Shown: positions 1,237-11,286 of the stretch, piece after piece
Position numbering within the stretch: the first letter of the stretch is position 1
Layout: every line of letters starts with the position of its first letter
DNA from: Rhodoligotrophos appendicifer
GTDB taxonomy: Bacteria; Pseudomonadota; Alphaproteobacteria; Rhizobiales; Im1
Direction: 5' to 3'
NCBI RefSeq assembly: GCF_007474605.1
Contig: NZ_VHKL01000005.1
Span: forward strand, 248,001 to 312,000
DNA length: 64,000 nt
Translations under genes and position numbers: made by a program
The notes under the pieces: generated by a model
The model's database searches: none
The model's input: only the letters and a program-made list of their open reading frames with translations
What the model was told of the DNA's origin: nothing

Positions 1237-4173
1237 ATGGGTTTGCCAGTAAAAGCAGTCCGGCGGGTGAGCCTGGGGGTTGAGTTCCCATCCTCGGTTC
1301 CGCGCCAAGGATGGGTGCCAGAAGCAGGCGACGTTAAGGCATCGATTGATGCTGACTTTACCCGTGATCGCTACTGGGACGGGGATGCAGCATCATACTC
1401 GTTCGAAAGGTTCATGGCGAGTAATCGACTTCGGGGCTCTTACGCGCGCGCAGGACAGCGCATCGTTCAACGCCGTCAAGGCTGGGTCGTTGTTCCCGCG
1501 AATGACGATGCGAAGCCATATGATGCTTTGGGGCAGCCAAAGGGCTTTCGCGCCGATGCTTCGCGAACCAACAAATGCACGTGCGCAAAGTACAATCTTA
1601 TTGATCTGACCAATCTCACGAAGGGCGGGGATGCCGCGGCGACTCTTTCTGTCGCCAGCAACCCATCCATGATTTCATCTGCCAAATTCGCAAAGGTGGC
1701 GACGAACGGCAAAGTCTACCGCCTGGACAATTCTAGCGGGGCTTTACCGGCCACTGCCAGCAGCGGCGTGTCCGGCAACACCAATAAGCATTCCGTTCGC
1801 GCCTTGGTTGGAGGCGGTTCCGGGACGATCGGATTGTCGAATGCGGCTGGACAGCAGGAATTTGAGGCTGGCGAACCTCGGTTGATTAAACAAGAGAATG
1901 TCACCCCTGATAGTTCAAGCGTGGGGTGGCAGATCCAGGCTAATGCTGGCGAGGTCATCGACTTCTTGTTCTGCGAGATGGTTGAGGTCGTCGCTCTGCC
2001 TGATGACATCATTGTAGCAAGTTATGCGGCAATGACGGACACCACCGCGCTTGACGTGCTTCAGCTTGGTCCCGTGGCGTTTGGAGGCTTAAACCCGGCC
2101 AATTTCAAGCTCGTTTTAGCCGAGAATGCCGATGATCTCACTGATCTTGTTGGCAGCACGACAACAATTGACGCGCAGGATTTTGCATCAGGAACAGGCG
2201 GTTTTGTTGCGGCAGGCAGCGCGGTAGCGGTGGATGTCTCAGGCGAGCTGCAGATCACTGGCGCTAGCAACTCTACTGTAGCTTCCAAATCCTACACGAT
2301 CACGCCGGGTGAGTTCTTCCGCGTCTCTGTGGCAGGGCGCCGAGGAACCGCTGGAAGCGCGGGAGCGCGTATTGGGAATGCTTTCAACGCGACGACCTAT
2401 GGCGAGTTTAGCTATTCCTCCTTCACCAAAGCGTTACGGTCTGTCATCTTCAAGGCGTCCAGTGCGAACTTGGTCCTGACGCTCGGATATGGCGCCACTG
2501 GGCTGACGACCTTCCACGATGATGTTCTTGTCGAGCAGCTCACCGTGGCTGCCGACCGATCCGTGGCTGCACAGCATCCGGTGGTAATTGGAACGCTCGA
2601 GCGTGTGCTGGTCGCGCCCGGCTCAAGCTTGGCCGGCTATACCGGGTTCTCAGAAAGCAATTATCTTGAGGTGCCCTACAATGCGGCATTCAATTTCGGC
2701 ACCAGTGATATTCACGAGGCGTGTTGGATCATTGGGGAGACCACTGGAGCCTGCGTCTTTACCGACCGCGGCACGCCCGGCGGTCAGCGGCGATATCAGA
2801 TCTCCCAAAATGAGAGCGGGTTTCTTCAGGCTATAATTGCCGACACTGGGGCTGTTCAGTTTGTATCCACGTTCCAGATAAATGACGGGCATCCGCATTT
2901 TATTGAATTGGTGCGGAAGGGAACGACCGCGGTCGAAATTCGATGTGATGGAGAAAGCCAAACCTTTGCCGGCACATCGAAGAGCGTCACGGATACTGGA
3001 ACGGCTACTCTGCGCATTGGTCTGTCGGCAGAGGGCACCAATCCGGCCGTCGGCTTTATCATAGCAGTTGTTCTCGTGCAGTCTTACGCACCAACTGCCG
3101 AAGAGTCAGCTCGAATGTATGAGCAGATGCTTCCCTACTTCACCGAGGGAAAATACGCTGATCCCTTCAACATCGGGCAAGGCTTCCCCTTTATTGGTTA
3201 TGACCCAACGCTGCCTTTAATCATCGTGACAGAAGCTGCTCAGGATTATCTTGGCACGAACGGTATCCGGGCAGAGCTTACCGACGGCACTTCAATTAGC
3301 CGTGCACAGAACTATGTGGGTTCATCAAACGTCCCTGGGCTGTATCTGCAGATTGCGGGAGTCAGCACGGGCAGCACGGGCGAGGGCAACTCGGTTGGAG
3401 CGGGCCAGTATGTGAAGGTTGCCACACGCTTTAAGTCTGGTGCAAATCGCGTCCGCTCGGAGATTTCGTCCGGTAGTGAAGTGGCTACGACGTATATTCG
3501 CCCTCCGCTCAAAGATCTGTTGCTCGGTGCCTCTCGCAGTAGCAGCGCGAATGCGCTCAAGGGCTATCTTAAGCGGGTCACTGTCTATCAGGCCGATCTG
3601 AACAATTCAGAGCTTGATGCTCTTGTTGGGGATTTCCCCCTTTGGACCGATGGTGACAGCTACAATGCGAATGCCGTGGGGCTGGCGAACACTCTGCGTA
3701 GCCTCACTGGCTTACTCCTGATCAATACGGCCATCAGCGGCTCAACCTTGCAGCAGACTGCAGACAGAGTGGAGGCCGACGTAGGCTACCATGCATCAAC
3801 TTTGATAGTCTGGGATGGCTCAGCCAACGGCTATAACACTGTTAGTGAATATGTCGACCAATATGACCGCATCATAGCCGCGCTGGGTCACGATCGGTAT
3901 CTGATCCTGCCCCCAGTTACACCCAGTGGTGGCGATCCCTTCATCAGCAATCAAATATGGGCGCTGATGCAGGAACGGCTCGATGAGACTCGTTTGCTCG
4001 ATCCCATGCCGGCCTTGCTTTCGCTCGCCATATCTCCAGGGGACGACGCAGATGTAGCGGCGGGATGCGTGCCGGCGAGCCTTATGCTCGATACGGTGCA
4101 TCTGACCCAAGCCGCCCTCACCGCAGTAGGCAACGCTGTTGTGGACGATCTCCAAAGTAGAGGATGGATCTGA
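1237..4173 (+). CDS. Phage tail fibre with LamG-like and C-terminal SGNH esterase domains
   Basis: This 978-residue protein starts with ATG at 1237. Residues about 30-110 (DFTRDRYW..., then ADASRTN) resemble phage head-spike/fibre N-terminal domains. The middle (about 470-640) reads as a concanavalin/LamG-like beta sandwich with an EVPYNAAFNFG opening. A second beta-rich segment covers about 650-790. The last 180 residues look like an SGNH/GDSL hydrolase: GDS at 806-808 gives the nucleophile Ser808, SGS follows as block II, and DTVH at 952-955 gives Asp952 and His955. Fibre-borne SGNH esterases remove acyl groups from surface polysaccharides during adsorption; that role here is inference. Base composition is lower in GC than flanking genes. 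The TGA stop overlaps the next start as TGATG. Confidence 0.75.
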   Translation: MGLPVKAVRRVSLGVEFPSSVPRQGWVPEAGDVKASIDADFTRDRYWDGDAASYSFERFMASNRLRGSYARAGQRIVQRRQGWVVVPANDDAKPYDALGQPKGFRADASRTNKCTCAKYNLIDLTNLTKGGDAAATLSVASNPSMISSAKFAKVATNGKVYRLDNSSGALPATASSGVSGNTNKHSVRALVGGGSGTIGLSNAAGQQEFEAGEPRLIKQENVTPDSSSVGWQIQANAGEVIDFLFCEMVEVVALPDDIIVASYAAMTDTTALDVLQLGPVAFGGLNPANFKLVLAENADDLTDLVGSTTTIDAQDFASGTGGFVAAGSAVAVDVSGELQITGASNSTVASKSYTITPGEFFRVSVAGRRGTAGSAGARIGNAFNATTYGEFSYSSFTKALRSVIFKASSANLVLTLGYGATGLTTFHDDVLVEQLTVAADRSVAAQHPVVIGTLERVLVAPGSSLAGYTGFSESNYLEVPYNAAFNFGTSDIHEACWIIGETTGACVFTDRGTPGGQRRYQISQNESGFLQAIIADTGAVQFVSTFQINDGHPHFIELVRKGTTAVEIRCDGESQTFAGTSKSVTDTGTATLRIGLSAEGTNPAVGFIIAVVLVQSYAPTAEESARMYEQMLPYFTEGKYADPFNIGQGFPFIGYDPTLPLIIVTEAAQDYLGTNGIRAELTDGTSISRAQNYVGSSNVPGLYLQIAGVSTGSTGEGNSVGAGQYVKVATRFKSGANRVRSEISSGSEVATTYIRPPLKDLLLGASRSSSANALKGYLKRVTVYQADLNNSELDALVGDFPLWTDGDSYNANAVGLANTLRSLTGLLLINTAISGSTLQQTADRVEADVGYHASTLIVWDGSANGYNTVSEYVDQYDRIIAALGHDRYLILPPVTPSGGDPFISNQIWALMQERLDETRLLDPMPALLSLAISPGDDADVAAGCVPASLMLDTVHLTQAALTAVGNAVVDDLQSRGWI

Positions 4174-4931
4174 TGCGACTGGGGCTCGGGCTATCACTAT
4201 CGATGTCAGCAATTGTGGCGGCGCCTTCAATCGTTCCGCCAGTTACCGATGGCCTCGAAGGCTTTTTCCTTTTCGGAGTAGATGCCGCTGAGTCTGCCAA
4301 GAACTGGGCACCCGGAAAGGCGGATGCTTCAGTGGTGGGCTCGCCAACCTATGGCGACGACTATGCTGTTCTCACCGGCAACGGCGTGGCCTACTTGCAA
4401 ACTCAAGTGGATCACACTGAGGATATGACGTTTATCGCGGTGGCTCGGCCGCTATCGGATGCTGCAGCGAGTCTGATCTCGAACTATCAATCACCAGCGA
4501 CACTCCATGCAGGAAACACAAACGGTTCAGTTTTGTCTTTCAGCACGGGCGTTGGCGCTGATGGCAAGGTGGTGGCAAATTTCGGGAGCGCTTATAACAA
4601 CGCCGGGACAAGCACCCAGGTAACCGCAGCGCAGGCCAATCCAGGCGGCGATATTAATGCGGACTATGCGATCTCTGGCCGTGTTGAAAACGCCACGCGA
4701 GGGAGAACTGTCAATAACCTGACTATGGGGACGGTGAACAGCAACACACCAGGGTCAGTGACAGTAGCAGATATCGGCGGAAAGCTCAGAATTGGAACAT
4801 CCTACAATAGCCAATTAGGCGCCCAAGTTCGGATCTATGCGTCCATCCTGTTTAGCCGTCGACTTTCGGACGAAGAGCTCACAACCCATTACGATTGGCT
4901 TAAAGCCTACTTCTCCGGTTTATCACTCTGA
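4173..4931 (+). CDS. LamG-like (concanavalin fold) phage protein
   Basis: I chose the ATG at 4173, which overlaps the fibre gene stop (TGATG) and has AGAGG about nine bases upstream. An in-frame ATG at 4164 lies too close to that site. The product has 252 residues. A hydrophobic N-terminus is followed by DGLEGFFLFG, GNGVAYLQT, DMTFIAVARP, LRIGTSYNS and an ending RIYASILFSRRLSDEELTTHY. That order is the classic layout of a concanavalin/LamG-like domain, in which the last strand precedes a 'L+.eEi...Y' helix. Such domains bind glycans. Coupling to the fibre gene suggests a fibre tip or accessory protein. The specific ligand is unknown. Confidence 0.65.
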   Translation: MRLGLGLSLSMSAIVAAPSIVPPVTDGLEGFFLFGVDAAESAKNWAPGKADASVVGSPTYGDDYAVLTGNGVAYLQTQVDHTEDMTFIAVARPLSDAAASLISNYQSPATLHAGNTNGSVLSFSTGVGADGKVVANFGSAYNNAGTSTQVTAAQANPGGDINADYAISGRVENATRGRTVNNLTMGTVNSNTPGSVTVADIGGKLRIGTSYNSQLGAQVRIYASILFSRRLSDEELTTHYDWLKAYFSGLSL

Positions 4932-5046: not shown

Positions 5047-5076
5047 TTGACTTATTTTGTGATGTATTTCTATCGT
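5047..5076 (+). promoter_or_regulatory. Candidate promoter of the SGNH moron-like gene
   Basis: TTGACT at 5047-5052 and TATCGT at 5071-5076 are separated by 18 bases, just upstream of the SGNH gene. The whole 4932-5101 gap is strongly AT-rich compared with its flanks. It contains another possible pair, TTGATA at 4939 and AACATA at 4962 (17-base spacing). The -10 match is weak, so the exact box is uncertain. An independent promoter here is plausible because the gap interrupts an otherwise tightly packed tail operon. Confidence 0.4.
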
Positions 5077-5101
5077 GCCCATTGCGAGCGGGGAGGCTCC
5101 G

Positions 5102-5986
5102 ATGGTCAGACAAATTGTTATAGTGACGTTAGCTACAATTGCGGTAGCCGCACTTATGATGGAATGTTTCGTACGTATTAGCGGGGTCGCGGATGTTCCG
5201 CTCTACGAAGCAGATGATCGAATCGGTTACATACCCAAGCCAGACCAAAGTGAAACTCTATTCCTAAAAAGCCACTGGGATTTTAACGACAAGAGTATGG
5301 GTATTTCGCGTCCGTTTGCTGGAGACCCGGAGAGAGATATTCTGTTGGTTGGCGACAGTATCGTTATGGGGACAAACAAATACTATCAAGAGGATAGGTT
5401 GGGTCCCCAGCTCGAGAATATTGTGAAGGTACCGGTATGGCCGATAGGGGCTTCAAGTTGGTCTGTTCAGAATGAAATCGAGTATTTAAAGAGGTTTCCA
5501 GATGTTGCGGGGTCCGTAGCTCGGATAGTGTTTATATTTAACGTTTTTGATTTCCAAGATGACCCTTCGTCTTGGAGAAATCCGATATCCCATCCGCTCG
5601 AGAGGCAATGGTCTCTTGTTTGGTTCTTGGCCGAGAAGTATCTACTGAAGCCAGCTTTTGATCAGGATGAGGTTCTGCGAGTTCAGCGGCGTGACTGGCT
5701 TGATGATTTGAGCTTGATTGCGCAAGCCTTAGATAAGCCTATTGATCTGTTTCTTTATCCGACGAGGGAGGAAATCAGCATTGGTAAGCCGTGCTTTACT
5801 CTCCCAGACAGACTTTCAAAGGTGCCAAACATCACAATTCACTGTATTGGGAAAGATCCTCGTTGGTCAGTTGCCGACTATGAAGACGACATTCATCCTT
5901 TGGCCAACTCTACCCCCAAGCTCGCCCAGATTATTGCAGATAATATTCCTCTTGGGATCTTCGTCGAACAACAGGTCGGCCAATAG
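5102..5986 (+). CDS. Membrane-anchored SGNH-fold protein, moron-like cargo
   Basis: The ATG at 5102 is preferred because GGGAGG lies about six bases before it. A GTG at 5075 would overlap the candidate -10 box. The product is 294 residues. Residues 3-20 form one hydrophobic segment (signal anchor), which would place the rest outside the inner membrane. LLVGDS puts the SGNH nucleophile at Ser86, and DDIHP supplies Asp262 and His265 as a block V dyad. Overall layout resembles periplasmic SGNH acyltransferases or esterases acting on polysaccharides (AlgJ/AlgX-like fold). GC is clearly below that of neighbours, and the gene is bracketed by its own candidate promoter and a terminator, the usual form of a phage moron. 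Altering a surface glycan, and so phage receptors, is a hypothesis. Confidence in the SGNH fold is good; the reaction is unknown. Confidence 0.65.
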   Translation: MVRQIVIVTLATIAVAALMMECFVRISGVADVPLYEADDRIGYIPKPDQSETLFLKSHWDFNDKSMGISRPFAGDPERDILLVGDSIVMGTNKYYQEDRLGPQLENIVKVPVWPIGASSWSVQNEIEYLKRFPDVAGSVARIVFIFNVFDFQDDPSSWRNPISHPLERQWSLVWFLAEKYLLKPAFDQDEVLRVQRRDWLDDLSLIAQALDKPIDLFLYPTREEISIGKPCFTLPDRLSKVPNITIHCIGKDPRWSVADYEDDIHPLANSTPKLAQIIADNIPLGIFVEQQVGQ

Positions 5987-6149
5987 ATGCCCGTCCGGGC
6001 TAGCTACTGATAATCGAAGTGTTTTCCTGGATGCATCGGCGGAGCTGCGAGAGATGGGGGCACCTGATCGAGCCCCGCCGACCGATGCTGAGGTGACGGA
6101 TCAGCACCGCAGATAGCCTACGCTCCTTCTGACTGAATCCACAACAGAT

Positions 6150-6170
6150 GCCGCTTTTGCGGCCTTTTTT
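6150..6170 (+). terminator. Rho-independent terminator after the SGNH gene
   Basis: A GCCGC stem at 6150-6154, a TTTT loop and the complementary GCGGC at 6159-6163 are followed by C and six T residues (6165-6170). This stops transcription from the SGNH gene before the lysis cassette. The gap 5987-6149 contains no credible gene. Confidence 0.8.
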
Positions 6171-6184
6171 ATAATGGAGGGGCC

Positions 6185-6574
6185 GTGACGGGGGCAATCA
6201 CATGGGAATTTCTCACGGCGATCGTCGGCGTGCTCGGGGTGCTGGCGGCGGTCTGGCGGTATCTCGAGGGGAGGATCATTCGCACCGAAGTCAATGCAAA
6301 GCGTGAGGTCGAGAATGCCAAGCGCGAGGTGGAGGCTGCGAAGCAGGCCGTAGAGTATATCCGCAAGGATATGGATAACCGCTTCGGCCTGATGAATACG
6401 ACGATTTCGACCATCCAGGTCATGAACGCCGAGAAATATGCCTCCCGCGAAGTGCTGCGTGAGACCGAGGACCGCATCGTCTCGGCCGTGGAGCGGCTGC
6501 AGACCTCGGTCGATCGGATGGGTGTGCGGATGGACACCATGCGCGACCGGCTGCCGCCGAAGACCGTCGCCTGA
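6185..6574 (+). CDS. Small membrane protein with coiled coil, lysis-cassette associated
   Basis: The frame starts with GTG at 6185, with GGAGGGGCC immediately upstream. The protein has 129 residues: one transmembrane helix at about residues 8-27, then a long charged heptad-like region (EVNAKREVENAKREVEAAKQ) and a second helical stretch to the end. There is no catalytic motif. Its place at the head of an endolysin-spanin cassette suggests a role in lysis, for example as a holin-like or accessory membrane protein. One TM plus a coiled coil is not diagnostic of any holin class, so I leave the function open. Confidence 0.55.
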   Translation: MTGAITWEFLTAIVGVLGVLAAVWRYLEGRIIRTEVNAKREVENAKREVEAAKQAVEYIRKDMDNRFGLMNTTISTIQVMNAEKYASREVLRETEDRIVSAVERLQTSVDRMGVRMDTMRDRLPPKTVA

Positions 6575-6791: not shown

Positions 6792-7739
6792 ATGGCTGAA
6801 CCGAAATGGCTGCAGGTCGCGCGACGCTATGAGGGCGAGCGTGAGATTGCCGGCAAAAAGCACAACCCGAAGATCGTGGAGTTCTTCCGCCGCGTTACGG
6901 GCCAGGCGCAGACCGACGAGACGGCTTGGTGCGCAGCCTTCGTCGGCTATTGCCTTGCGGAGGCCGGGCTGCCGAACACCGGTAAGCTGACGGCGCGATC
7001 CTATCTCCAGTATGGCGAGCCGCTGGAGGAGCCGAAACTGGGGGCCATCACCGTGTTCAAGCGGGGCTCCTCGAGCTGGCAGGGGCATGTCGCGTTCTTT
7101 CTGCGGGACCTTGGCAGCAAGGTGGAGGTCTTTGGCGGCAACCAAGGGAATCGGGTGTGCGTCGCCGCCTATGCGAAGAGGGACCTGCTGGGATATCGCT
7201 GGCCCATCGCCGTGAAGCGCGAGGCGGGCGAGCCGCCGCATGACCTGCTGAGCGTGCAGCGGCGGCTGAAGGATCTCGGCTATCACGAGGTCGGCAAGCT
7301 CGACGGACTCATGGGCAATCGGACCCGCACGGCGCTCTATGCCTTCAAGGACAATGAGGGCTTGCCCATCAACGCGGATCTGGATGACGCCACGATCCGC
7401 GCGCTGTTCGTGACGGCGAAGGCCAGGCCCATCGATCCGGAGCGGGCGACGGGCGCGCCTATCGATTCGAAGATCGTGAAGAACAGCAACCGCAGCATCA
7501 CGACGGGTGCCGTCGCGGTGGGCACTGGCATCGTGTCGGGCGCCAAGCCGCTGCTCGACCAGGCCCAGGACACGACGGGCGTGGTGGGGCAGGCGGTGTC
7601 CGTGCTGCGGGACCTCTCCGACATCGTCGGGCCCTGGCTGCCTTACATCATGGTCGCCGTGGGGGCAGGGGTGATGATCTTCGCCGGCCGCGCGCTGCTC
7701 ACGCGGCTGAAGGATCATCGGGAGGGCCGCACGCCATGA
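6792..7739 (+). CDS. Endolysin (TIGR02594-like) with PG-binding domain and C-terminal membrane anchor
   Basis: The product is 315 residues. The N-terminal 140 residues form a TIGR02594/CHAP-like papain-fold peptidase with Cys47 in TAWCAAF and His99 in GHVAFF, expected to cut peptides of the cell wall. A peptidoglycan-binding_1 domain follows at about 148-205 (LLSVQRRLKDLGYHEVGKLDGLMGNRT). After a Ser/Thr/Gly-rich linker, residues about 280-305 form a transmembrane helix followed by a basic tail. There is no N-terminal signal, so export must rely on a holin-type hole or on the membrane helix. The stop overlaps the spanin start as ATGA. Family and catalytic residues are read from the sequence; in vivo lysis is inferred. 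Confidence 0.8.
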   Translation: MAEPKWLQVARRYEGEREIAGKKHNPKIVEFFRRVTGQAQTDETAWCAAFVGYCLAEAGLPNTGKLTARSYLQYGEPLEEPKLGAITVFKRGSSSWQGHVAFFLRDLGSKVEVFGGNQGNRVCVAAYAKRDLLGYRWPIAVKREAGEPPHDLLSVQRRLKDLGYHEVGKLDGLMGNRTRTALYAFKDNEGLPINADLDDATIRALFVTAKARPIDPERATGAPIDSKIVKNSNRSITTGAVAVGTGIVSGAKPLLDQAQDTTGVVGQAVSVLRDLSDIVGPWLPYIMVAVGAGVMIFAGRALLTRLKDHREGRTP

Positions 7740-8119
7740 TCCTGGCTTTCATCCTCTCGCCGCTCGGCCGCGTGCTGGGCCTGGTGCTGGCGCTGCTGGC
7801 GGCGATCGGCGGCATCTATTGGGCGGGCTACTCCAGCGCTTCGAGCAAATGCAATGCGGCAGCACTCGAGGAGGAGATCCGCACGCTGCGGGAAGACATC
7901 CGGATTGCTCGCAATGCGGAAGCGCGGGCGGCCGAGGAGAGTGCTTCGCTTCGCGATATCAATCAGACCCGGGAGAAGACCCTTGATGCTTATGAACAGG
8001 AGCTTGCCGAAGAACGTGCAGCGGAGCCCGAGGTCGTCGTGGTGCCGGGCAAGCCTGCTACTCGCAGCTGCAGCTTCATCCTTAGTCCTCGTGACGCAGA
8101 GCGGGTGCTCGGCCAATAG
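7736..8119 (+). CDS. Rz-like inner-membrane spanin (i-spanin)
   Basis: The 127-residue protein starts at ATG 7736, overlapping the endolysin stop by four bases. A single N-terminal transmembrane helix covers about residues 5-28. It is followed by a periplasmic charged coiled coil (LEEEIRTLREDIRIARNAEARAAEE to about residue 100) and a short tail. This is the i-spanin layout: an inner membrane anchor and coiled coil that reaches through the periplasm to an outer membrane lipoprotein partner to fuse membranes in the final lysis step. The partner gene is embedded in its 3' half in another frame, the classical Rz/Rz1 arrangement. Confidence 0.75.
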   Translation: MILAFILSPLGRVLGLVLALLAAIGGIYWAGYSSASSKCNAAALEEEIRTLREDIRIARNAEARAAEESASLRDINQTREKTLDAYEQELAEERAAEPEVVVVPGKPATRSCSFILSPRDAERVLGQ

Positions 8120-8318
8120 AGCGGTGGTCGGGAGGGAGCTGCCGACGAAACCGGAGTTCATGGCGCCAATCGCGCTGTCTCCCGTGAAGGCGGGGCAGGA
8201 TGCGCGCCTGGTGGCGGCGCGGAAACAGGCGGAGGCCAAGGCGGCGAATGAGAGGCTGGTGGCGAGCGGCCGCTGGTATGAGGGGGTGAGGGGGGATTAT
8301 TCTAGGCCGGTGGATTGA
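7986..8318 (+). CDS. Rz1-like outer-membrane spanin lipoprotein (o-spanin), overlapping Rz
   Basis: The frame is open from 7854, but the sensible start is ATG 7986 (GGGAGA about ten bases upstream) or ATG 7992. From 7986 the product has 110 residues: a basic N-region, a hydrophobic stretch SLLLAAAASSLVLV, then QSGC with Cys41 as the likely lipidated residue. The -3 position is Gln rather than Leu, so the lipobox is imperfect. The mature part is Pro, Ala and Lys rich. The first 134 bases overlap the i-spanin gene in the +1 frame. The 3' end overlaps the converging AbiJ-like gene by 22 bases. Confidence 0.6.
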   Translation: MLMNRSLPKNVQRSPRSSWCRASLLLAAAASSLVLVTQSGCSANRAVVGRELPTKPEFMAPIALSPVKAGQDARLVAARKQAEAKAANERLVASGRWYEGVRGDYSRPVD

Positions 8319-9202
8319 TTGCTTTCCGCCGACTCGGGTTGAAGCTCGATGCCGGAATTTTGAGCCTTCGCGATGAGAAACGAAACGAAGCTGGCACAAG
8401 CCCCCAACATAAACAGTGCGTCAGCCTCGTCTTCTGCGGCCTGTGAGGAGGAGAACAGTTCATGCCTAATCCCCTCGCTGGTGTTGGTGTAAGCATATAG
8501 GCTTGTTATCGCAGACTTCAGTTGGTTATTTGGAAGAACTCCTTTCCGTTGGAGCATATTCAGAGCAGGTCCAAGTGTGTTGTTTGACTTGGGATCCAAT
8601 CTGCGAGCGGTGGCCGCCACAGCGTGGATGCTTTCTCTAATACTATCTGCGAATTTACCTTCAGTCAGGAGCTGGGCCGAGTTTCGAAAGTGCTTTCTTA
8701 CGCCTGAAAATCCGTTTTCTTTTGCTGCGTTCAGGGCTCTTTCCAGAGTGTCCGCTTCCTCCTCTACTCCTATGGGCGCGATGAGATCGCCATCAAAAAC
8801 CCGGTAAGCGCACTTAGTCTCACTCAAAGCATTTTTAATATAGGTGTTTAGGTCCGAATCGACCCTCACGGACAACACAAATTCACAAAATCCCAGAGTT
8901 TTGCCGTAGGATTGTTCCATTACTATATTTTTCACAAATTCGATAACGTGTGAAGCTTTACTGCTGTATTCGTCGGCTGCACGGTGGCAACGTCTTATCC
9001 AATAGGTGAAAACAGCTTGATTAAATCTACCGCTAACCCTCCTCCGGTCGATGTCGGTTTCTTTTTTTATGCATTCGTGAAAAATCGCCCACAGTAACGC
9101 TCTCGTTTCTTTGCTGACGTGTCCTCGTTGCATTTGTGCGGGTTTAATGAGGCCCTCGCGCTCCTCAAATGTCGGGCGATTCTCACGCAAGGTGTTCTCC
9201 AT
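8297..9202 (-). CDS. AbiJ-NTD4 / HEPN-like abortive-infection protein
   Basis: I place the start at base 9202 (MENTLREN), with TGAGGG about nine bases upstream. A Met at 9217 is possible but lacks a ribosome site. The product is 301 residues. The N-terminal ~120 residues begin with TFEEREGL and an LLWAIFHECI helix, as in the AbiJ-NTD4 family of predicted phage-defence proteins. Residues about 150-270 match the associated HEPN-like helical domain: GFSGVRKHFRNSAQLL, FADSIRESIHAV, LGPALNMLQRKGVL, LYAYTNTSEGIRHEL, FMLGACASFVSFLIAK. HEPN domains often act as toxin RNases; here only R-x3-H (RESIH) and IRH remain, so catalysis is uncertain. GC is far below neighbours. It converges on the o-spanin gene, which suggests prophage-borne defence cargo. 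Confidence 0.75.
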   Translation of the reverse strand: MENTLRENRPTFEEREGLIKPAQMQRGHVSKETRALLWAIFHECIKKETDIDRRRVSGRFNQAVFTYWIRRCHRAADEYSSKASHVIEFVKNIVMEQSYGKTLGFCEFVLSVRVDSDLNTYIKNALSETKCAYRVFDGDLIAPIGVEEEADTLERALNAAKENGFSGVRKHFRNSAQLLTEGKFADSIRESIHAVAATARRLDPKSNNTLGPALNMLQRKGVLPNNQLKSAITSLYAYTNTSEGIRHELFSSSQAAEDEADALFMLGACASFVSFLIAKAQNSGIELQPESAESNQSTGLE

Positions 9203-9268
9203 TAAGTCTGCCCTCATATTCAGAGCGCAGAATGATCGGGCTTTTTTCTCCACCTGGTCAACAGCGAC

Positions 9269-10192
9269 ATGCCCAAGCGTACATCTTCTCCACCGCCGGC
9301 TCGTGTTGAGCCCTCCCTGCCTACCCTCGTCCAACAGCCGCCCAAGGGCCCGCAATGGGTCCACGAGATCAAGTGGGATGGCTATCGGCTTGCCGTTCAT
9401 ATCAACGGCAAGGACATACGCGCGATCACGCGCAACGGCTTCGACTGGACCGACCGTTTTCCCACCATCATCGAGGCCGCCGGCAAGCTGCGGGTGAAGA
9501 GCGCCATCCTCGATGGTGAGGCCTGTGTGCTCAACGAGCAGGGCATCTCCGACTTTGGTCTGATGCAGGCGGCGATCGCCCGCGGCCGGAAACCATCGGA
9601 CAAGGTAGTGCTCTACGTCTTCGACCTGCTGTTTCTGGATGGACAGGATCTGCGCAGCCAAACCCTGGCCTCGCGTCGCTTGTACCTAGTCGAGCTGCTG
9701 GAGCGCACGGCACATCCCGGTCTCGTGCTTTCGGAGGAAATCCCAGGCTCGGGCGAGGCAGTGTTCCGTCATGCGTGCCAGCTCGGCCTCGAGGGCATCA
9801 TCTCCAAGCGGAAGGATCTTCCGTACGTTTCCGGACGAACAGCGGCCTGGCTAAAGACCAAGTGCGTGTTGCGCGACGACTTCGTGGTCATCGGCTATGA
9901 GCCCGGCATTGCTGGTTCTGTGAACAAGCTGCGCGTGGCAAGACGCGATGAGGATGGTGTCCTGCATTATGCGGGCGGCGTCGGAAGCGGGCTGTCAGAA
10001 CGGCTATCGAAGGGCCTGAAGGCGCGCTTGGAAAAGATCGCGATCGCCAAGCCGGTGATCAAAGGCCTCCGTCAGAAGGGCATCATCTGGACTGAACCGA
10101 AGGTGGTGGTTGAGGTGGAGTATCGAGGTCTGACAACCGCAGACCAGAAGCTGAGACATCCAGCGTTCAAAGGGGTCCGGGAGGATAAGTGA
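9269..10192 (+). CDS. Stand-alone LigD-type ATP-dependent DNA ligase
   Basis: The 307-residue protein covers the adenylation and OB domains of bacterial NHEJ ligases. EIKWDGYR gives the AMP-accepting Lys35 (motif I). DGEACVL, YVFDLLFLDG, EGIISKR and WLKTKC follow as motifs III, IIIa, IV and V. The OB domain ends with LRHPAFKGVREDK. Full LigD proteins also carry phosphoesterase and polymerase domains, both missing here, and no ku gene is in the window. The start has no clear ribosome site, and only 66 bases separate it from the divergent AbiJ-like gene, so either this is a natural stand-alone ligase or the 5' part was lost when foreign DNA arrived. End-joining or nick sealing is the family role. 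Confidence 0.85.
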   Translation: MPKRTSSPPPARVEPSLPTLVQQPPKGPQWVHEIKWDGYRLAVHINGKDIRAITRNGFDWTDRFPTIIEAAGKLRVKSAILDGEACVLNEQGISDFGLMQAAIARGRKPSDKVVLYVFDLLFLDGQDLRSQTLASRRLYLVELLERTAHPGLVLSEEIPGSGEAVFRHACQLGLEGIISKRKDLPYVSGRTAAWLKTKCVLRDDFVVIGYEPGIAGSVNKLRVARRDEDGVLHYAGGVGSGLSERLSKGLKARLEKIAIAKPVIKGLRQKGIIWTEPKVVVEVEYRGLTTADQKLRHPAFKGVREDK

Positions 10193-11209: not shown

Positions 11210-11286
11210 CGGGGCATAGCGCAGTCTGGTAGCGCACCTGGTTTGGGACCAGGGGGTCGCAGGTTCGAATCCTGCTGCCCCGACCA
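11210..11286 (+). tRNA. tRNA-Pro (anticodon TGG)
   Basis: This is a 77-base cloverleaf. Acceptor arm CGGGGCA pairs with TGCCCCG. The D-arm region is AGCGCAGTCTGGTAGCGC, the anticodon stem CCTGG flanks loop TTTGGGA with TGG at the anticodon, and the T arm holds GGTTCGAAT. A CCA end is encoded. It reads proline codons. The gene has accessory DNA on its 5' side and core genes on its 3' side. Confidence 0.95.

Follow-up and report, generated by a model that had tools for sequence, protein, structure and literature searches.

A prophage of Rhodoligotrophos appendicifer carries, between its tail and lysis genes, a gene for a membrane-anchored protein of the SGNH type. With moderate confidence, this gene is regarded as a prophage moron whose product is an inner-membrane, periplasmic SGNH enzyme that acts on O-acyl groups of the surface polysaccharide of the lysogen and probably blocks superinfection. 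Within this reading, the expression in the lysogen, the topology, the substrate, the direction of the reaction and the effect on other phages are what we infer. An earlier note on the same DNA had proposed an SGNH protein that is membrane-anchored, encoded by a moron and directed at a surface glycan, and this outline has been supported by a structural model, by a comparison of the junction with other phages and by the neighbours of relatives. Points against the reading include the candidate promoter of the gene, which is at chance level, and the top fold match, CgnD, which is a peptide-releasing hydrolase and not a sugar enzyme.

The prophage and the SGNH gene

The window, meaning the whole stretch of 64,000 nucleotides that was analysed, corresponds to C5:248001-312000 of the 5.59-Mb R. 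appendicifer genome. The prophage is 41.7 kb long and runs to window position 11252. Its ends are marked by a 43-bp exact repeat that forms the first part of a tRNA-Pro gene, with the left copy at C5:217541 and the right copy in the window, and an integrase gene lies at the left end (L008 3612-4748; Pfam 85.9 bits). The 41.3-kb IMG/VR contig UViG_2828001536_000004 holds the identical gene set at 100%. At the right end, the tail-fibre gene is followed by a tail-end gene, the SGNH gene, a holin-like gene, the endolysin gene and the spanin gene (Table 1). An ATP-dependent DNA ligase gene (window 9269-10192; Pfam 101.6 bits), overlapped by a long opposite open reading frame (8297-9661), is located between the spanin gene and the attachment site and is likely further prophage cargo.

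Table 1. Features at the right end of the prophage, in window positions
Feature	Position	Strand	Basis
Tail-fibre gene	1237..4173	+	phrog_11419 tail fiber over residues 928-978
Tail-end gene, function unassigned (phrog_4390)	4164..4931	+	PHROGs
Candidate sigma-70 promoter TTGACT-18-TATCGT	5047..5076	+	9/12 matches
Membrane-anchored SGNH protein, 294 aa (P0002)	5102..5986	+	ORF, ribosome site; AF2 model; Foldseek and VIA fold
N-terminal membrane helix codons, residues 5-23	5114..5170	+	Hydropathy; helix 2-27 in model
Extension from helix to SGNH core, residues 28-79	5183..5338	+	Alignment A4; model
Block I G84-D85-S86, predicted nucleophile Ser86	5351..5359	+	Ser86 in 17/17; Ser86 codon 5357-5359
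Block III Asn147	5540..5542	+	10/17 aligned sequences; Ser, Ile or Met in remaining 7
Block V Asp262-x-x-His265	5885..5896	+	17/17 aligned sequences
Intrinsic terminator between SGNH gene and lysis genes	6150..6169	+	Strict scan, shuffles, fold z
Holin-like gene, opens lysis module	6185..6574	+	Weak holin match, 16.3 bits (cut-off 34.75); position
Endolysin, CHAP and peptidoglycan-binding domain	6792..7739	+	Pfam
Rz-like spanin	7736..8119	+	PHROGs
Right attachment repeat, 43 bp, in tRNA-Pro	11210..11252	+	Exact repeat of C5:217541

The open reading frame of the SGNH gene is intact, and its start is likely the ATG at 5102 rather than the GTG at 5075, because a GGGGAGG ribosome site sits just upstream of the ATG. 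The gene had been described as a single AT-rich gene that interrupts an otherwise compact tail-lysis operon, and both parts of this description need to be qualified. It is the gene with the lowest GC content of this end (46.3%, GC3 0.47, with 61-66% in the lysis genes), and of the eight tail-lysis stretches that were compared, only the gap before it is more AT-rich. However, it is no isolated AT-rich island, since the GC drop already begins in the tail-fibre gene (55.8%) and continues in the next gene (54.0%). The gaps of 170 and 198 bp that flank it are two of the four longest among the 25 gaps between late genes as called in this analysis, 21 of which measure at most 89 bp, but two gaps of comparable length (165 and 328 bp) are present elsewhere among the late genes.

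The clear terminator that had been reported behind the gene is well supported. The sequence GCCGC-TTTT-GCGGC-CTTTTTT at 6150 is the sole site by a strict definition across 27 kb on both strands, while 20 shuffles that keep the local composition gave a mean of 0.1 such sites on the plus strand, the only strand counted in them. Its folding has a z-score of -2.65, with 3 of 200 shuffles equally stable. By a looser definition, the region contains 8 terminator-like sites versus 4.7 +/- 2.2 in shuffles, and it is the site at 6150 that stands out rather than the number of terminators. The promoter claimed for the gene, on the other hand, is no better than chance, as 5 promoter-like sites were counted in 5.5 kb versus 2.7 +/- 1.8 in shuffles.

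Predicted fold and active site

A structural model was obtained with AF2 from an alignment of 17 sequences that includes the window protein (A4), with a pLDDT of 92.2 and a pTM of 0.90; a prediction from the single sequence was poor (pLDDT 43) and was set aside. In the model, the N-terminal helix is followed by an extension and then by the SGNH core in the canonical S-G-N-H order. The extension consists of four strands (35-61) and carries the signature GYIPxPNQSG, which reads GYIPKPDQSE in the window protein, and its residues Q49, N62 and M66 are invariant in all 17 sequences. In the core, the residues G84, S86, G90, W120, N124, P165, Y260, D262 and H265 are likewise found in 17/17. The column of the block II glycine is occupied by Gly in 14/17 sequences and by Ser118 in the window protein, with Gly116 nearby. 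The oxyanion hole may therefore be unusual, given this substitution and a block III Asn that is kept in 10/17 members.

Comparison of the model with solved structures using Foldseek resulted in 38 PDB matches at E <= 0.001, titled esterases, lipases and thioesterases, which we take to be SGNH/GDSL enzymes, plus CgnD. In VIA, 195 of 1000 chains reached Z >= 8. CgnD was far ahead with Z 18.6 over 215 residues (30-284, the extension included) at 14% identity, followed by GDSL esterases (Z about 12.6), the catalytic domain of OatA (Z 12.1) and carbohydrate esterases (Z about 12). OafB is absent among the 50 matches listed by VIA or Foldseek, and this has no bearing on the likeness to OafB.

Searched on its own, the window protein matches neither Pfam nor NCBIfam above the cut-off, nor any PHROG. 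A profile search of PDB sequences gave weak GDSL matches, the best at E 0.00053, and PatB at E 0.094. Lipase_GDSL_2 is matched by 12 of the 17 members at E <= 1. Five members, but not the window protein, weakly match PF19040, an SGNH domain known from AT3 fusions, with E <= 1 and a best value of 0.0099. Neither is the AT3 domain itself (PF01757) matched in the window protein, which has a single membrane helix. By the modelled fold and the triad, the gene product belongs to the SGNH hydrolase superfamily. The signal anchor and the residues Ser86, Asp262 and His265 named in the earlier note are thus in agreement with the alignment and the model, and structure prediction has recovered the SGNH fold expected there.

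Relatives in phages and bacteria

The family is rare and patchy in bacteria. Among 397 genomes of the same order, including its own, two full-length relatives (35-37%) and weak partial matches in three more genomes were found. The 385 genomes of the class added one further full-length relative and partial matches in two, and the 398 genomes of the phylum two further relatives, one of which (L099) encodes the same protein as L056 and was counted once. Named genomes gave 15 loci, including five distant ones (23-26%) and L060, which is L003 again. Relatives were also observed in six other viral contigs, and since L074 and L075 are identical, five of these are distinct. When named phages were searched with P0002 by tblastn, 6 records at E 0.7 were obtained under terminase genes and were taken as chance matches; the relative of L072 gave no match by tblastn in named phages and plasmids.

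An SGNH relative is missing from all 34 other viral loci that were found by this endolysin (of the 35 loci including its own, 30 extend at least 3 kb upstream). In L024, which is identical to L025 in this part, and in L026, small genes and then the endolysin gene come after a tail-fibre gene, with no space left for an SGNH gene. The holin-like genes of L024 and L072 have no Pfam or PHROG match.

Most phage relatives lie opposite to the neighbouring phage genes. In L071 (38%), the SGNH relative is opposite to structural genes, and the gene next to it on the same strand, about 0.3-0.5 kb upstream, is an AT3 gene (Pfam 76 bits). In L073 (40%), it is opposite to terminase and portal-type genes and adjoins a gene for an FkbM methyltransferase (65 bits). 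The relative in L074 (30%) is placed on the opposite strand between a spanin-like gene and a gene for a 1530-aa protein, followed by a tail-fibre gene, and that of L076 (22%) is opposite to tail genes at a distance of about 2 kb. In L072 (41%), the relative and the late genes share a strand, and a GH19 endolysin-like gene precedes the relative. Integrase matches in the records of L073, L074 and L076 support that these phages are temperate; none was found in the records of L071 and L072, both of which may be fragments. A gene in the orientation opposite to the late operon is not transcribed with it, and such a position has been described as typical of accessory loci (PMC7067206). Together with the absence of the gene at all 34 other endolysin loci, these positions argue for the moron that had been proposed.

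In the tree of the family, the phage label takes 4 changes on the best tree, and at least 2 are forced by well-supported branches; 47 of 500 label shuffles are equally low. A single phage clade is not supported by these results. L071 and L073 are sisters, and L076 sits on a very long branch. In L071, each moron gene is seemingly accompanied, on the minus strand, by a repeat of the start of a tail-region gene (5309-6091, 7405-7692 and 8914-9156; 15/23 aa and 26/68 aa identical), as if the AT3 and SGNH genes had entered via recombination between duplicated gene starts. A general pairing of phage AT3 genes with the SGNH family was considered and rejected: among the best 80 of 156 phage AT3 loci, examined with 4 kb flanks, only one has an SGNH relative nearby, namely the L071 contig itself.

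The tail fibre of the prophage is possibly a second SGNH protein. Its C-terminus (window 3652-4170) contains the motifs GDS806 and DTVH952 and is a candidate SGNH domain of a virion esterase, judging from these motifs. No Pfam SGNH domain was matched in it, and a weak acetyl xylan esterase match (E 0.99) was the only one obtained. In L072, a virion-type protein (1806-3920) has a firm Pfam match to a GDSL domain (57.7 bits) and carries the PHROG label head decoration, and this contig thus holds both a GDSL virion-type protein and a membrane-anchored SGNH gene. For temperate Klebsiella phages, esterase activity of two SGNH tail fibres has been reported, and SGNH matches have been described in proteins adjoining some prophage receptor-binding proteins (PMC13123978).

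The link to surface polysaccharides made in the earlier note is supported by the genes around some of the phage and bacterial relatives, while for 6 of the 11 close bacterial relatives (L004 and L055-L064) no clear polysaccharide gene was present among the scanned neighbours. The other five (L057, L058, L059, L061 and L064) lie near clear polysaccharide genes, a count given here without a background rate. The neighbours were chosen by eye from the open reading frames near the relatives, as a subset, and were scanned with Pfam in sets of 10, 10, 10 and 5 proteins and with PHROGs in two sets of 10. L057 has an AT3 gene 29 bp upstream of the SGNH relative, as well as genes for a glycosyltransferase, an O-antigen ligase and WecG. 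The neighbours in L058 include a sugar transferase, a glycosyltransferase and a sulfotransferase, with AT3 genes about 6.5 kb off on the same contig. L059 has a GDP-mannose dehydratase, L061 an exosortase and a sub-threshold ligase match, and L064 Wzz and an O-antigen ligase. Among the neighbours scanned in the remaining six loci, no polysaccharide gene was observed in L055 (beta-helix proteins), L056 (gyrase B and ChaC), L060 (catalase and a methyltransferase regulator), L062 (an FG-GAP protein) or L004 (an NMT1-type binding protein), and no clear one in L063, where only a hexapeptide transferase was present. An AT3 cluster considered as a neighbour of L055 was discarded, as the cluster is on G777:C28 (40,521 bases) and L055 on another contig (57,873 bases). 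A distant relative in L101 (1459-3434) directly follows a gene of the sugar epimerase/GDP-mannose dehydratase type, which is also a polysaccharide setting.

Proposed function and known systems

In the proposed mechanism, the single N-terminal helix would tether the periplasmic SGNH enzyme to the inner membrane, and the triad of Ser86, His265 and Asp262 would move O-acyl groups on O-antigen, capsule or exopolysaccharide. The acyl group would be taken onto Ser86 and then passed to water, as by a deacylase, or to a sugar, as by a transferase. Relatives encoded beside an AT3 gene would receive acyl groups from the AT3 protein before transferring them. The tail enzyme may use the acylated glycan as its receptor, and in the lysogen the membrane enzyme would strip or alter this glycan and thereby shut out further phages. 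The changed coat of the host would probably prevent superinfection.

In the host genome, no match was found to AT3 (PF01757), MBOAT (PF03062) or OpgC (PF10129), which are present in 10, 3 and 1 of 14 control genomes, respectively; one borderline match to HGSNAT_cat was observed (22.6 bits, cut-off 22). Because AT3, MBOAT and OpgC have no match there, we lean slightly towards removal of acyl groups by the enzyme in this host. Relatives with an AT3 gene alongside resemble one half of a split AT3-SGNH enzyme, the half that carries out the transfer. The presence of AT3 elsewhere in a genome is uninformative alone: among the genomes or records that contain a relative, 12 of 15 have AT3, and 10 of 14 control genomes carry it too.

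It is possible, though doubtful, that the window protein adds acyl groups as the final transferring half of a split O-acyltransferase of the AT3-SGNH type, with a transmembrane donor of the host, for example of the HGSNAT type. The order of helix, extension and SGNH domain resembles the TM11-SGNHext-SGNH arrangement of OafB, and in AT3-SGNH enzymes the SGNH domain is described as performing the final transfer and the extension as restricting the acceptor (PMC7448272). The AT3-only protein WecH has been reported to be able to supply the SGNH protein PatB (PMC9558356), and the AT3 genes close to the relatives in L057 and L071, and farther off in L058, fit such a division of labour. Against it stand the host genome, with no match to the three donor families, and genome G032, which holds a 35% relative and has no PF01757 match. 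In a broader proposal, which is considered unlikely, the family would be the separate SGNH partner that has long been suspected for stand-alone AT3 proteins. Bacterial polysaccharide loci and temperate phages would have it in common, and phages would trade it as a lysogenic-conversion module, either by itself or combined with AT3 or a methyltransferase; on its own, it would deacylate the receptor of the phage's own tail fibre.

The protein could also act late, by stripping acyl groups from the receptor at lysis so that the progeny escapes trapping, and would then not be a moron of the lysogen. The gene does lie within the late operon on the same strand, its relative in L072 is likewise on the late strand, and the tail fibre may carry an SGNH domain of its own; yet the strong terminator directly 3' of the gene and the opposite orientation in L071, L073, L074 and L076 speak against a late protein, to which only a small chance is given. 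It is just as improbable that a bacterial gene with an unrelated envelope or peptide function was acquired by chance and has no role in the phage, even though the family is scarce in bacteria, some bacterial relatives are found among genes without a clear surface role and CgnD is known to release a leader peptide (PMC10070186). Five further distinct viral contigs contain relatives, which in two cases have AT3 or FkbM genes next to them, and the acquisition is not one accident, because the phage label needs at least 2 changes by well-supported branches. A peptide-processing role as in CgnD was ranked below the main reading, and no precursor-peptide genes were noticed by eye beside the relatives. 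The preferred reading remains that of a moron enzyme acting on the surface polysaccharide of the lysogen.

Several known systems are comparable to this protein. The AT3-SGNH O-antigen acetyltransferases of the OafB/OafA type resemble it in the helix, the structured extension and the periplasmic SGNH domain, and an unusual oxyanion hole has been described for OafB (PMC7448272). They share the link to surface glycans with the family as well. Unlike these enzymes, which contain a fused ten-helix AT3 domain, the window protein has none, and a separate AT3 gene is near in only two of the loci examined; with one helix and no PF01757 match, it is not a fused enzyme of the OafB/OatA kind. PatB and AlgJ/AlgX, the partners of MBOAT proteins, are also separate extracytoplasmic SGNH proteins that act on the acyl groups of an envelope polymer. 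The host has no MBOAT match. The likeness to AlgJ/AlgX suggested earlier did not hold, as these proteins are circularly permuted with the block order H-S-G-N (PMC9487903), while the window protein is canonical and Ser86 precedes His265; the AlgX/AlgJ family PF16822 is matched by 1 of the 17 members (E 0.01). CgnD, the closest solved fold, serves in crocagin synthesis, where it cleaves a leader peptide (PMC10070186).

Among phage proteins, G7C gp63.1 and the receptor-binding proteins of Klebsiella prophages are likewise SGNH enzymes that act on acetyl groups of surface glycans (PMC13123978). These tail-fibre deacetylases are virion proteins, whereas the window protein is predicted to be membrane-anchored and is encoded outside the tail protein. 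Oac/OacA of SF6 is also a phage gene that changes the surface glycan of the lysogen and excludes superinfection (PMC9558356), but its product is an AT3-only membrane protein and not an SGNH protein. Another surface-altering phage gene that excludes superinfection is gtrC of prophage BTP1 (PMC7067206). In the literature, covered largely by titles and abstract openings, no paper was found on a prophage-encoded membrane-anchored SGNH protein like P0002.

Papers on AT3 enzymes have raised the question of an unknown partner that stand-alone AT3 proteins may require (PMC9833829, PMC9558356). With members beside AT3-only genes in one phage contig and one bacterial polysaccharide locus, the SGNH family offers a concrete candidate for such a partner, although this pairing is rare among the loci covered. 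Membrane-tethered SGNH enzymes can escape annotation, as P0002 does when searched alone. If the reading is correct, membrane-tethered SGNH enzymes would join AT3 and Gtr enzymes as a means by which phages convert host surfaces. What differs from the known phage conversion of surface-glycan acylation is the carrier, which is a lone SGNH half.
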